DNA of 64,000 nucleotides, taken from positions 3,229,001-3,293,000 of the forward strand of contig NZ_CP130322.1 in NCBI RefSeq assembly GCF_033025475.1, read 5' to 3'. The position numbers were made by a program, and so were the translations under genes. Under the pieces are notes generated by a model. That model was given only the letters and a program-made list of their open reading frames with translations. It made no database searches and had not been told where the DNA came from. The DNA comes from Sphingomonas sp. C3-2. Its GTDB lineage: Bacteria > Pseudomonadota > Alphaproteobacteria > Sphingomonadales > Sphingomonadaceae. Shown piece by piece: positions 25,843 through 43,493 of this stretch; the stretch's first letter is position 1, and each line of letters starts with the position of its first letter.

Positions 25843-25926
25843 TCAGATGACCAGGATGGTTCCGATTGCAAGCGCCTGTGTGGCGATTACCAGCACCAGG
25901 CTGGTCGCCGTTTCAAAGACCTTCAT
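25843..25926 (-). CDS. Putative 27-residue single-helix membrane peptide
   Basis: The frame encodes MKVFETATSLVLVIATQALA followed by IGTILVI: a short charged N-terminus and one hydrophobic helix from about residue 7 to the end. A GGAG lies 7 nt before ATG 25926, an ideal spacing that argues against the ATG at 25932. A promoter-like pair (25998-26025) and an intrinsic terminator (25796-25828) frame it as its own transcription unit. I recognise no family. Small helices of this size often bind a larger membrane complex (compare KdpF or CydX), but that is inference. Confidence 0.5.
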   Translation of the reverse strand: MKVFETATSLVLVIATQALAIGTILVI

Positions 25927-25997
25927 CGTCATGCTCCAGATGTTAGACGTCTCCCACGACGTCCCCCACGCGCTATTGTGCGCTGCAGCATGAAATA

Positions 25998-38719: not shown

Positions 38720-38742
38720 TTCATGTTGCGATGCGAGATGAA
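38720..38742. promoter_or_regulatory. EPS-locus palindrome, copy 1
   Basis: Arms TTCATGTTGC and GCGAGATGAA around central GAT. 8 of 10 arm positions pair. Located 18 bp upstream of the acetyltransferase start, where a bound protein would cover the promoter-proximal leader. Confidence 0.6.
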
Positions 38743-38967
38743 AAAGCCCTTCGGCGGCGGATCGTTCCCTTGAATATTGGCTTCTCGGTGTAAATCGCGG
38801 TGCCTGAGTATCTAATCGCGTCTCATGCACCGCTTGCCTCCCTGGGGTGGAACCGCACTTTGTTTTGGTTGTTTGAGGCTGAGTTATCAGCCCAAGAGGC
38901 AAAACGGGTTCGTAAAAGGGGACGAAGAAAAACGATGAACATCACTCTTCCCTTTCTCGAATCCGTG

Positions 38968-38990
38968 TTTATGCTGCGATGCGGCATAAA
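38968..38990. promoter_or_regulatory. EPS-locus palindrome, copy 2
   Basis: Arms TTTATGCTGC and GCGGCATAAA around central GAT. 9 of 10 positions pair. Located 71 bp upstream of the priming transferase start and immediately before the CTGCGATCG dyad. Confidence 0.68.
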
Positions 38991-38993
38991 ACG

Positions 38994-39013
38994 CTGCGAT
39001 CGGTCGATCGCAG
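38994..39013. promoter_or_regulatory. Perfect 9-bp inverted repeat upstream of priming transferase
   Basis: CTGCGATCG-GT-CGATCGCAG, with only a 2-nt centre, begins 3 bp after palindrome copy 2. The tiny centre makes an RNA hairpin less likely than a DNA-binding site. The half-site TGCGAT is shared with the palindrome family. Confidence 0.55.
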
Positions 39014-39061
39014 TACGAAATCTCGGTGACCAAGCTTGATGGAATTGAGCAGGTTGGCGCA

Positions 39062-40453
39062 ATGAATATTTCGGTCGGATCTTTCGAGGGGCAACCCATC
39101 ACCCCTGCATGGCCTGCGGATGCGGGCGCAATCGGGCGTTCGAAGCGTAGCTACCGTGTGGCGGTCTATACCGCGATGGTGGTGTGTGACCTTGCCGCAG
39201 TCGCGCTCGCATTTCTTCTGGCGAATATGGCGACGCACGGGGCGCTGTTCGCCGGCTTCGGCCTGCGCATGGCCGGTATCACCTTGCCGATCTTCATCCT
39301 CTTCGCGATCAAGAACCGGGCCTATGCGCTTGATGTTTTGAAAGATCCTACGCGGGGCACGATCCGCGCAGTGCTGTGCCTGATGGTGGCGGCTGCGCTG
39401 GTCATGTTCGTGCTCTATGGGCTCGGGCTTGAGGGCGGCGGCGCTGCCGCGCTGCTTGGTGGTGCATGCGTCATCGGTGCTGCGTTGCTGGCGATCGCGC
39501 GTGCGGTTCCGGCGATGCTCTCCAGCCGCTTGCTGGCCGACAATCCGCTCCACGAACTCGTCATCATCGACGGCTCCACCCAGCGCCCCCCTATGGGCTG
39601 CACGGTTTTGAAGGCCGAAGAGGCGGGCATCGTCCCTGACCTATCCGATCCCTTCATGCTCGACAGGCTGGGCCAGGTCGTGCGCGGTTTTGACCGCGTT
39701 ACCGTCGCCTGCGCGCCCAATCGCCGGGCGGACTGGTCGTTCGTCCTGCGCGGCGCGGCGATCGAAGCGGAAATCCGCTGCGATTCGCTGTACCGGGCGC
39801 TCGGGCGCGCACCGCACCCGGTCCATACCGGGCCGATCAGGCCGCTTCCGGTTCTGGATTACATGCTCAAGCGCGCGCTCGACGTGGCGCTGGTGTTGCC
39901 CGCGATCATTTTCCTCGCGCCGCTGATGATCATGGTCGCACTCGCGATCAAGCTCGAAAGCGACGGCCCCGTCCTCTTCGTCCAGCAGCGCCTCGGCTAT
40001 GGCAACCGGCTCTTCCGCATGTACAAGTTCCGCAGCATGCGGAGCGACCGTTCGGATGCCAGCGGCCGCGTCTCGGCCAGCCGCGAGGATGATCGCATCA
40101 CGCGGATCGGACGTATCATCCGCGCTACCAGCATCGATGAATTGCCCCAGCTCTTCAACGTGCTGAACGGTACGATGAGCCTTGTCGGCCCGCGCCCCCA
40201 TGCACTCGGCTCGACGGCGGACAGCAAGCTGTTCTGGGAGATTGACCGGAACTACTGGCTTCGCCACGCCTCGATGCCGGGGCTCACGGGCCTCGCGCAG
40301 GTCCGGGGTTTCCGCGGCGCGACGCTGGAGCAGGAAGACCTGGAAAACCGCCTCGCGGCCGATCTCGAATATGTCCAGAACTGGTCGATCTGGCTTGATA
40401 TCGGGATCATCTTCCGCACCTTCGGCGTCGTCGTTCACCGCAACGCCTTCTAA
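39062..40453 (+). CDS. Undecaprenyl-phosphate sugar phosphotransferase (WcaJ/SpsB/GelB type)
   Basis: 463-residue priming enzyme that moves hexose-1-phosphate from a UDP-sugar to undecaprenyl phosphate, starting the repeat unit on the inner membrane. Four N-terminal helices (about 25-170), a CoA-binding-like central region, a fifth helix (VALVLPAIIFLAPLMIMVAL), then the catalytic sugar-transferase domain (FVQQRLGYGNRLFRMYKFRS, TSIDELPQLFNVLNGTMSLV, GPRPHA, and GLTGLAQVRGFRG). Glucose is the usual substrate of this class. ATG 39062 is preferred over GTG 39026. Monocistronic, ending in a 12-bp stem terminator. Confidence 0.93.
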   Translation: MNISVGSFEGQPITPAWPADAGAIGRSKRSYRVAVYTAMVVCDLAAVALAFLLANMATHGALFAGFGLRMAGITLPIFILFAIKNRAYALDVLKDPTRGTIRAVLCLMVAAALVMFVLYGLGLEGGGAAALLGGACVIGAALLAIARAVPAMLSSRLLADNPLHELVIIDGSTQRPPMGCTVLKAEEAGIVPDLSDPFMLDRLGQVVRGFDRVTVACAPNRRADWSFVLRGAAIEAEIRCDSLYRALGRAPHPVHTGPIRPLPVLDYMLKRALDVALVLPAIIFLAPLMIMVALAIKLESDGPVLFVQQRLGYGNRLFRMYKFRSMRSDRSDASGRVSASREDDRITRIGRIIRATSIDELPQLFNVLNGTMSLVGPRPHALGSTADSKLFWEIDRNYWLRHASMPGLTGLAQVRGFRGATLEQEDLENRLAADLEYVQNWSIWLDIGIIFRTFGVVVHRNAF

Positions 40454-40456
40454 GTA

Positions 40457-40491
40457 CCGGGCGGCGCATGGTGCGCCGCCCGGCCTCTTTC
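40457..40491 (+). terminator. Terminator of the priming transferase gene
   Basis: 12-bp perfect stem CCGGGCGGCGCA-TGG-TGCGCCGCCCGG followed by CCTCTTT, 4 nt after the stop codon. Confidence 0.8.
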
Positions 40492-40494
40492 ATC

Positions 40495-41586
40495 CTATTC
40501 CTCTGAAACCGCGCGGTAGGTTTCGGCCGTTTGCGCGGCGATCACGTCCCAGTCGAACGCCGTGCGGAAATGCCCGGCATCCACGGCATAATGCGCGGCG
40601 GGCGACGCCAGCGCCGCGCGCAGCGCGTCGACATTGCCGACGGGGAAATAATGCGCAGGCGCCAGCCCCAGATCGCGATTGGGCTGGATGTCGCTCAACA
40701 GCATCGGCGTTCCGCACGATGCCGCCTCGAGCGCGGCGATCGGCAGGCCTTCGTGATAGGACGGCATCACGAACAGCGCGGCATTTTCGTACAGCGCGCG
40801 CAGCGCCGCGCGGTCCTGCAGCCCGGCAAAGACAATCCGTTCATCGGCACGCGCCAGCAGGCTGCGCGAATAATTGCTCTCATGATCGGCGCCGCCTGCA
40901 ATGATCAGCGATCGCGGATCGTCCGACGCCAGATGCGCATCGATCAGGTCGTGCAGCCCCTTTTCGGGAACCAGTCGGCCGACGGCAAGAAGGTACGAGC
41001 CCGGCGTCACGTCGAACTGCTCCAGCACCGCGAGACGCGGTTCGGGCAATTGCGGGGCGCCGTTCGGGATATAGTCGATCCGCGCCGCCCGATCGGGAAA
41101 GCGCGTCTTGAGCCGGGTGGTGAGCGACGGCGAAACCGCGATCACGCGGTGCGCGTACCGCACGCCCAGCCGCTCGCCCAGCTTCAGCATGCCCGATGCG
41201 AAACGCCCCCATTTGGCGCGATTATAATCCTCGCCGTGGTGCGTCATGACAACCTTCAGCCCAAGCGCGCGCGCCAGCGGGACGAGCAGCGACGGGCCGA
41301 TCGCATGGATATGGATGATCTCGGCGCCCGTGCGCCGGGCCGCTAGCACCGCGTTGAAGGTCGCGATGATCGCCTCCAGCGACACGCGGCGCGGGGAGGG
41401 GAGCGCGACGACGCGAACCCCGCGAAAACCGTAATCGGCCTCGGCGACATAAGGCGCGCGCGCAAAGACGGTGATCGCCGCATCGGGGGCATGGCTGCGC
41501 ACACGCGGCAGCATTTCTTCGCAATGCGTTTCCACGCCGCCCATCACATCGGGAATGCCACGCAGTCCGGTGATCGCGATCTTCAT
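40495..41586 (-). CDS. Glycosyltransferase family 4
   Basis: 363 residues, GT-B fold. N-terminal MKIAITGLRGIPDVMGGVET binds the acceptor; C-terminal GT4 domain with YLLAVGRLVPEKGLHDLIDA (about 198-217) and PSYHEGLPIAALEAASCGTP, the EX7E donor motif. No membrane helices. Retaining transferase adding one sugar of the repeat unit; sugar unknown. Its start overlaps the upstream pyruvyl transferase stop by 4 nt. Last gene of a three-gene minus-strand operon. Confidence 0.9.
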   Translation of the reverse strand: MKIAITGLRGIPDVMGGVETHCEEMLPRVRSHAPDAAITVFARAPYVAEADYGFRGVRVVALPSPRRVSLEAIIATFNAVLAARRTGAEIIHIHAIGPSLLVPLARALGLKVVMTHHGEDYNRAKWGRFASGMLKLGERLGVRYAHRVIAVSPSLTTRLKTRFPDRAARIDYIPNGAPQLPEPRLAVLEQFDVTPGSYLLAVGRLVPEKGLHDLIDAHLASDDPRSLIIAGGADHESNYSRSLLARADERIVFAGLQDRAALRALYENAALFVMPSYHEGLPIAALEAASCGTPMLLSDIQPNRDLGLAPAHYFPVGNVDALRAALASPAAHYAVDAGHFRTAFDWDVIAAQTAETYRAVSEE

Positions 41587-42593
41587 GCCGCGATCTCCTC
41601 GGTCAGCAGCGCCTCGGCTGCAGCCATCGCCCCGTCCAGCGTCGTGGCGGGGCGGTGGATCGGGGAGGGGGCCGTCCAGGCGTCGATGAAGTTGCCGAGC
41701 TTGCGATAGCTGTTGTCGAGCGTGACGTTCGGGATGCCGGCCAGCGTCGACAGGATATGCCCGTGCAGCCGGTCGGTGATCACCACGCGCCCGCTCGAAA
41801 GCTGATCCAGCCCGCGCTGCACGCGCATCTGCGCCAGCCGGTCGAACGTCCGCAGTGCGGCGCCATCGGCATCGGCCAGCCCCAACAGGCGCGAAACGAC
41901 ACGCGCGCGCCGTATCCGGGCGCGGTCTTCGGTCAGCCAGTCGCCCGCTGCCACCGCGCGGGGCGATGCCGGCAGCGCCCCTGTCACCGATTTCTCATGA
42001 TCGGTGCGCATCAGGCAGAATATGTCGTGCGCCGGCGCACCGCGCCGCTGCACGCCCATGCAAAACGCCATGTCGGGCGCCAATATGGTTTCGCAGCCAA
42101 GCCGCTGTTCGGCAAAGGCCTGAGACGGGGTATCGCGCACGAGCAGCGTGAAGCCCCCATGGCGGGCAATGGCGGCCACCGTCGCGTCGGCTGCGGCGTC
42201 GCTCTCGAAATGGATCGATTGCGGCAATTGGATGATCGGGTTGCCCGGAAACCGCTCCATCAGCGCTATGCGGAAATCCTGGTGCGCCTGCCACAGGGTG
42301 CCGAAATTGCCGCCGCCGTGGAGGAAGATCGGGCCGGTGCCGATCGCCTTGCGCATCGCGTCGTGATCGTGCGTCTTGAGGCTGCTGCAATAATGCGGCC
42401 GCTTGCCGTGCCGGGCAAAAAAGGTCGTTTCCCCCAGCCAGATCGCGGAATCCCCGACATTGGCATGGTCGGGAAAGTCGACCAGCGCAAAGGGCGCATC
42501 GCTCAGATAGGGTGCCAGCGCGGTTTCAAGCCGGGCATTCAACATATCGATCAGTGCGGTGTTGGAAAGGGCAGGCGCGGGCGTTGCCGTCAT
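41583..42593 (-). CDS. Polysaccharide pyruvyl transferase family protein
   Basis: 336 residues from ATG 42593, which has GAGG 8 nt upstream; ATG 42638 would add 15 residues. Family signatures: FPDHANVGDSAIWLGETTFF near 54-73, FLHGGGNFGTLW, QLPQSIHFES and the C-terminal TDRLHGHILSTLAGIPNV, TLDNSYRKLGNF. Enzymes of this family put a pyruvate ketal on sugars using phosphoenolpyruvate, giving the polymer negative charge. Some homologues have other roles, so the reaction is inferred. Overlaps the GT4 gene by 4 nt. Confidence 0.88.
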   Translation of the reverse strand: MTATPAPALSNTALIDMLNARLETALAPYLSDAPFALVDFPDHANVGDSAIWLGETTFFARHGKRPHYCSSLKTHDHDAMRKAIGTGPIFLHGGGNFGTLWQAHQDFRIALMERFPGNPIIQLPQSIHFESDAAADATVAAIARHGGFTLLVRDTPSQAFAEQRLGCETILAPDMAFCMGVQRRGAPAHDIFCLMRTDHEKSVTGALPASPRAVAAGDWLTEDRARIRRARVVSRLLGLADADGAALRTFDRLAQMRVQRGLDQLSSGRVVITDRLHGHILSTLAGIPNVTLDNSYRKLGNFIDAWTAPSPIHRPATTLDGAMAAAEALLTEEIAA

Positions 42594-42643
42594 CTGGGAA
42601 ACCTCGAAATGGTCTGGAGTATGTGTGGGGGCGGTCATCTGGA

Positions 42644-43402
42644 TCACCGCTGGAACAGCAGCCGGCTCTTGCCGAGCAGTTGATACCCGGCCCGCTCGCG
42701 CGCGTGGCACATCATGCGGCGCAGTTTGAGGCGGGCGGGGATGTCATAGCTGTCGAACCGGTCGAGCCCGATCCCGCTTTCGATCCGGCGCTCCATCAAC
42801 GGAAAGGGGAATACCGCGAGGTTGGGGATACCGTGGATCCACGATCGGTCCATCGCGTCGTCGATCGGGCGCCTTACCTGCTGCAGCGCGTCGGCAAAGC
42901 GCTGCGCGCCGCGCCGGGTGATCAGATAGCCTTGGGTCCCGAAACAATATCCCGTCACTTCGATAAGCCAGCTCGCCCGGCACACGAAGTCGCGCTTCAG
43001 GATGCGGCTGGGGGCGGGCTTCTTGTAATACAGGCGGATATAGTCATGACCGTCAGCCGCATGGTTCGTCGCGGCCATCGGTTCGAGGAACGACCAGTCG
43101 GCGATCACATCGTCTTCAAGGATGATGTACTGATCGGCCTCGTCATCGGCCTGCAACTGGCGCCACAGTGCATAATGGCTCGAATAGCAGCCCAGCTCGC
43201 CGGCGCGCAAAGGGCGCCCCTTGGCGATCACGGCATCGTCCTCGGCATAGCTCAGGCCCGGTTCAAGCTCGGTCCGCGCATCGAAAAACTGCCAGGGCAA
43301 TATCGTGTCCACGGCGGACGCTGCGAAATCGGCGCGCCGCACGGCGGCGTTCGCCATGCTGATCACGAAAGTCTTCGTTCGTACTGACGCCGTAGCTACC
43401 AT
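42644..43402 (-). CDS. Glycosyltransferase family 25 (LPS-type)
   Basis: 252 residues from ATG 43402 (a GTG lies just before it). GT25 pattern: FVISMANAAVRRADFAAS at the start, GELGCYSSHYALW (about 68-80), the ILEDDVIAD metal-binding region (about 94-102), and YLITRRGAQRFADAL. Inverting GT-A-like enzymes of this family usually transfer galactose. First gene of the operon GT25-pyruvyl transferase-GT4, reading away from the palindrome copy 3 region. Confidence 0.88.
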   Translation of the reverse strand: MVATASVRTKTFVISMANAAVRRADFAASAVDTILPWQFFDARTELEPGLSYAEDDAVIAKGRPLRAGELGCYSSHYALWRQLQADDEADQYIILEDDVIADWSFLEPMAATNHAADGHDYIRLYYKKPAPSRILKRDFVCRASWLIEVTGYCFGTQGYLITRRGAQRFADALQQVRRPIDDAMDRSWIHGIPNLAVFPFPLMERRIESGIGLDRFDSYDIPARLKLRRMMCHARERAGYQLLGKSRLLFQR

Positions 43403-43425
43403 CACTCAACCTCTTTCTACCGGCG

Positions 43426-43450
43426 GGAACGCATGAAGCGCCCGGTCGTT
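43426..43450 (+). promoter_or_regulatory. EcfG-type general-stress promoter upstream of GT2-kinase operon
   Basis: GGAAC (43426-43430), 16 nt, CGTT (43447-43450): exact match to the sigma-EcfG consensus. It faces the plus-strand GT2/Wzc/Wzy operon, starting 150 nt downstream. Confidence 0.65.
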
Positions 43451-43470
43451 CAATACGCCGATGGATCCGT

Positions 43471-43493
43471 TTTATGTTGCGATGCAAAATAAA
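43471..43493. promoter_or_regulatory. EPS-locus palindrome, copy 3
   Basis: Arms TTTATGTTGC and GCAAAATAAA around GAT; 9 of 10 positions pair. It begins 20 bp after the EcfG-type -10 element and ends 11 bp before a perfect TATAAT (43505-43510), so a bound protein could block one or both promoters. Confidence 0.7.

Follow-up and report, generated by a model that had tools for sequence, protein, structure and literature searches.

The exopolysaccharide (EPS) locus of Sphingomonas sp. C3-2 raises the question of which factor controls its expression. Three palindromes of one family lie within it, which the initial annotation likened to the operator set of a single dimeric regulator, and it was correctly stated there that the locus contains no regulator gene. 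The locus is part of a stretch of 64,000 nucleotides, here called the window. Its features are listed in Table 1, together with a fourth box and a small open reading frame (ORF) found further to the left.

Table 1. Palindromic boxes and genes considered in this analysis (positions are those of the window)
Feature	Sequence or family	Positions	Strand	Context or remark
Box 1	TTCATGTTGCGATGCGAGATGAA	38720..38742	.	18 bp before annotated acetyltransferase gene start; putative PhaR-type
Box 2	TTTATGCTGCGATGCGGCATAAA	38968..38990	.	Before priming transferase gene (+); putative PhaR-type
Box 3	TTTATGTTGCGATGCAAAATAAA	43471..43493	.	Between GT25 (-) and GT2 (+) genes; putative PhaR-type
Fourth box, putative PhaR-type	GCTATTGTGCGCTGCAGCATGAA	25972..25994	.	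Between dnaJ and purB, before small conserved ORF
27-aa ORF	MKVFETATSLVLVIATQALAIGTILVI	25846..25929 (approximate)	-	Downstream of fourth box
Hexapeptide acetyltransferase gene	PF00132	38061..38702	-	Putative target of box 1
EPS priming transferase gene	PF02397	39026..40453	+	Start GTG 39026 or ATG 39062; putative target of box 2
GT4 glycosyltransferase gene	PF00534/PF13439	40495..41586	-	Leftward operon
Polysaccharide pyruvyl transferase gene	PF04230	41583..42710	-	
GT25 glycosyltransferase gene	PF01755	42644..43405	-	Putative target of box 3
GT2 glycosyltransferase gene	PF00535	43600..44607	+	Putative target of box 3
Wzc-type chain-length and export kinase gene	PF02706/PF13614	44604..46784	+	Downstream of GT2

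The EPS Locus and Its Palindromes

The assignment of the locus to EPS synthesis is supported by the Pfam families of the encoded proteins. The acetyltransferase gives weak matches, below cut-off, to EpsC/CysE-like NCBIfam models, the priming transferase is of the WcaJ/EPS_sugtrans type, with scores under the NCBIfam cut-offs, and the match of the Wzc-type kinase to eps_transp_fam is below cut-off as well. When the GT25 protein was used as bait in 60 genomes, only three other homologues were found, all of them distant.

The sequence and the gene positions bear out the initial description of the palindromes. Each measures 23 bp, with eight of the ten arm pairs matched in box 1 and nine of ten in boxes 2 and 3, and all three are intergenic. 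Boxes 1 and 2 share a single gap, i.e., the one between the divergently oriented genes for the hexapeptide acetyltransferase (-) and the priming transferase (+), and their right halves are degenerate, reading GCG, not GCA. The consensus proposed in the initial annotation has three matches in the 3.53-Mb genome, which are boxes 1-3, and the reversed-pattern control has none; this uniqueness is partly circular, as the consensus was derived from these very boxes, and it arises because the GAT centre and near-exact arms are required. Directly after box 2, at positions 38994-39013, a perfect 8-bp stem, CTGCGATC-GGTC-GATCGCAG, was flagged as terminator-like on the minus strand.

The Motif Resembles That of PhaR

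PhaR (AniA) is a regulator that senses polyhydroxyalkanoate (PHA/PHB). The core TGC-NNN-GC(A) and the AT-rich arms of the palindromes suggested PhaR as the factor that binds them, and the motif, which the initial annotation had left unrecognized, was indeed found to match the published PhaR motif as well as boxes in phasin promoters. The motif reported for Sinorhizobium meliloti PhaR, WNWD2NYGCRNYGCRNH2WNW (PMC12542648), is matched perfectly at just two places in the window, i.e., boxes 2 and 3 (0 of 21 mismatches each), and box 1 deviates from it at 1 of 21 positions; the reversed window contains no perfect match. In Bradyrhizobium diazoefficiens USDA110, the PhaR consensus is the 12-mer TGCRNYGCASMA (PMC6201568), from which boxes 2 and 3 differ by one mismatch each and box 1 by two. 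The phasin boxes of strain C3-2 itself match this 12-mer exactly on one strand.

The genome contains a single gene for a PF07879 protein (G000:C1:3220561), located outside the window, ~47 kb to the left of box 1. Its product carries a full-length (1-61) PHB_acc_N DNA-binding domain (PF07879, 107-110 bits) and a PHB_acc domain (PF05233, 69.3 bits), and it passes the cut-off of the PhaR equivalog TIGR01848 (157.5 bits vs. 109.45). Divergent from phaR lies a PhaC-like gene (L001 381-1508), which gives only a weak match to class III PHA synthase models (100.8 bits; cut-off, 365) and may encode a divergent synthase or no synthase at all. Because this gene scores far under the curated PHA synthase cut-offs, PHA production in the strain is putative. 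A PhaR box in the gap between phaR and phaC, which would indicate autoregulation, was considered but is not claimed here: the match seen in another genome (G001, L008) runs into codons for the N-terminus of the phaC-like protein, and in the C3-2 genome the corresponding copy has a low score.

The boxes of phasin promoters were used to train a scoring matrix. The training sites came from PF09361 loci of other genomes, with the C3-2 genome and the EPS sites excluded; the matrix was applied to the window and to chosen loci, whilst whole-genome searches were done with patterns. In strain C3-2 and in most relatives searched, the main phasin genes are preceded by paired TGC-NNN-GCA boxes (for example TTTATGTTGCAGTGCACAATATA), mostly about 45-60 bp apart, and the shorter second phasin-type genes mostly have no such pair. 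The two phasin boxes of C3-2 score 28.8 and 26.5 bits. The phasin promoters of Sphingomonadaceae, those of C3-2 included, have in common with the EPS genes a 23-bp box, but they have two boxes upstream of each Phasin_2 gene, with ACT/AGT-like centres, as opposed to single boxes with a GAT centre at the EPS genes of C3-2. Over the 64 kb of the window, the matrix ranked box 3 first (30.1-31.3 bits), the site at 25972 second (22.6 bits), box 2 third (18.8-19.3 bits) and box 1 fourth (10.8-12.3 bits), and the best score in 30 windows simulated under a Markov null was 21.1 bits. By score, box 3 is far outside chance, box 2 lies close to the upper end of the null distribution, and box 1 is not significant alone; box 1 is nevertheless credible because its position is kept in relatives. 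The palindromes had been thought to be confined to the EPS locus, with none in other gaps of the window. This view had to be abandoned, given the fourth box at 25972-25994 and given that the phasin promoter and other places in the genome carry boxes as well.

Conservation of the Boxes in Other Sphingomonads

Syntenic EPS loci (L130-L139) were compared from Sphingomonas sp. LaA6.9, Sphingorhabdus sp. EL138, two Sphingosinicella and several uncultured Sphingomonadaceae; loci L147-L209, mostly distant transferases from other phyla, were left out. Where the flanking genes are kept, so are the boxes: with the phasin-trained matrix, they were found before the acetyltransferase gene, before the priming transferase gene, and between the GT25 and GT2 genes in all nine loci that span the region (L131-L139), which do not amount to nine independent cases, since several of the uncultured ones are closely related. 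No site above 10 bits was found in the reversed sequences of the syntenic loci. In L130, box 2 is present and box 1 is weak (5.9 bits), and no GT25/GT2 gene was found in the stretch covered. The acetyltransferases of the syntenic loci are 73-83% identical. When the loci are anchored on the sites, identity amounts to 94-97% at the six core positions, to 30-37% in the flanks of sites 1 and 2, and to about 60% in those of site 3. The occupation of the three positions in nine syntenic loci lends good support to the idea that these are operators of a single dimeric regulator.

The link with EPS genes is not universal: a box of >12 bits lies within 700 bp upstream of eight of the 29 priming-transferase orthologues (none in reversed sequences, and none at 27 uvrC genes), and the other 21 lack one. 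As to the regulator, phaR is present in 242 of 250 genomes of the family, and three of the eight in which it was not found are fragmented or incomplete. A short box pattern has matches in 247 of the 250 genomes and almost none in the reversed control. Genomes with phaR contain about 6 matches each (a hand sum over 48 genomes, both strands counted; reversed control near 0.04), and the five reasonably complete genomes without phaR, four of them from one small-genome genus, contain 0-3 each. This points to depletion of the box, not its absence, when phaR is lacking, which is the right direction, although genome size and kinship are confounding factors.

PhaR as a Putative Regulator of EPS Genes

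Judged from these sequence comparisons, we put the probability that the EPS palindromes are operators of PhaR, acting in trans, at roughly 0.87. The boxes lie at the beginning of every arm of the EPS cluster, i.e., at the acetyltransferase gene, the priming transferase gene, and the divergent GT25/GT2 operons. When granules are scarce, free PhaR on the boxes would repress the EPS genes. Formation of storage granules would titrate PhaR onto the polymer and thereby release the promoters of EPS, phasin and depolymerase genes. By analogy with rhizobia, such repression, relieved by PHA, is probable; for strain C3-2, binding by PhaR, repression, and the role of PHA as a signal are inferred.

In S. 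meliloti, PhaR binds the promoters of exoY, exoL and exoH and represses them in a PHB-dependent manner. The S. meliloti regulon resembles the case described here in its palindromic motif, whose arms are AT-rich, in the paired boxes of phasin promoters, and in the presence of boxes at EPS promoters, including that of exoY (PMC12542648). However, S. meliloti belongs to the Rhizobiales, and its EPS clusters, for succinoglycan and galactoglucan, are unlike the sphingomonad locus, which is distinguished by its conserved three-box layout and a pyruvyl transferase gene. In B. diazoefficiens, a phaR mutant produced more EPS, and an operon containing exoZ was induced (PMC6201568). The 12-mer of strain USDA110 covers the core of the sites, with an RNY centre, and its PhaR controls phasins and depolymerases as well as the operon with exoZ, a gene for an EPS acetyltransferase (PMC6201568), a gene set that differs from the EPS locus studied here.

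It is unlikely that PhaR occupies these sites to activate or fine-tune the EPS genes, in which case EPS would fall as granules form. PhaR targets that are apparently activated do exist in both Bradyrhizobium and Sinorhizobium, and sigma-70 promoter scans of the two box-bearing gaps found none against which the boxes could be placed. Nevertheless, the EPS targets tested were repressed in both rhizobia, and phaR mutants make more EPS.

Less probable is a second regulator with a PhaR-like motif that serves the EPS genes only. In C3-2, all three sites do have GAT at the centre and TTYATG in the arms, a form found nowhere else in the genome. However, the GAT centre, although correctly noted for these three sites, is not a fixed feature: the central triplet in relatives reads GGC, GGT, GTT, ATT, AGC or AAC, thus varying in the syntenic loci as it does in phasin sites, whereas the TGC-NNN-GCA core is kept. 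Moreover, the EPS sites are found both by the matrix trained on phasin promoters and by the published PhaR motif, neither of which was derived from them, and the locus offers no gene for such a second regulator. That the palindromes are due to chance or are a repeat element without regulatory function is hardly credible: box 1 alone does fall in the upper range of the Markov null, but reversed-pattern controls were without or nearly without matches, and the conservation of the positions across genera, with diverged flanks, already contradicts chance.

Sphingomonads make commercial gums, such as gellan, welan and diutan, from carbon that they can also store as polyester. If the EPS promoters indeed carry PhaR operators, this would provide a testable account of the balance between gum and polyester and a handle to alter it, and the PhaR-EPS link of rhizobia would hold in a second order of Alphaproteobacteria. 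As that link is already known in rhizobia, what appears to be new is the conserved three-operator locus of sphingomonads; a search of the open-access literature, in which subscription journals are mostly not included, gave no account of such boxes at EPS genes of sphingomonads.

PhaR-Type Boxes Outside the EPS Locus

A relaxed PhaR box pattern has 43 matches in the C3-2 genome, as compared with 7 in the control (both strands counted), the EPS sites and the two phasin boxes being included. Among the others, for which gene names were read from translations and not from family searches, the strongest box found outside the EPS sites (29.6 bits; L050 1501-1523, G000:C1:532140) lies between a GTP cyclohydrolase-like gene (folE-like) and a TonB-receptor-like gene. 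A second one (25.5 bits; L214 1516-1538, G000:C1:2872415) precedes apparent genes for P-II and glutamine synthetase (glnB-glnA), which hints that nitrogen assimilation may be connected with carbon storage, and a third (L215) is found between LysR-type and MFS-type genes.

A search of 398 genomes of the family with the consensus of the EPS sites located 13 sites, spread over 12 genomes; two of these sites belong to the C3-2 genome, and the reversed pattern was not found. The neighbours of these sites include a phasin gene (L023), genes of the PHA depolymerase type (L014 and L018), a priming transferase gene (L015), genes of the acetyltransferase/O-antigen-ligase type (L020) and a gene for a nucleotide-sugar epimerase (L021), whilst others are without evident link. 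A broader proposal is that control of EPS by PhaR is a shared alphaproteobacterial circuit, which would include the conserved three-operator sphingomonad locus, reach glnB-glnA and the gene for the 27-aa peptide, and constitute a general switch of carbon storage, nitrogen assimilation and surface polymers. This proposal is tentative and falls short of an even chance.

The fourth box of the window has the same placement in two loci of the same genus (L009 and L011), and a peptide nearly identical to the 27-aa product is encoded in both. Upstream of the small ORF in L011 (G004, around 1500-1640), several TTGC/GCAA-rich repeats look like clustered weak PhaR-type sites.
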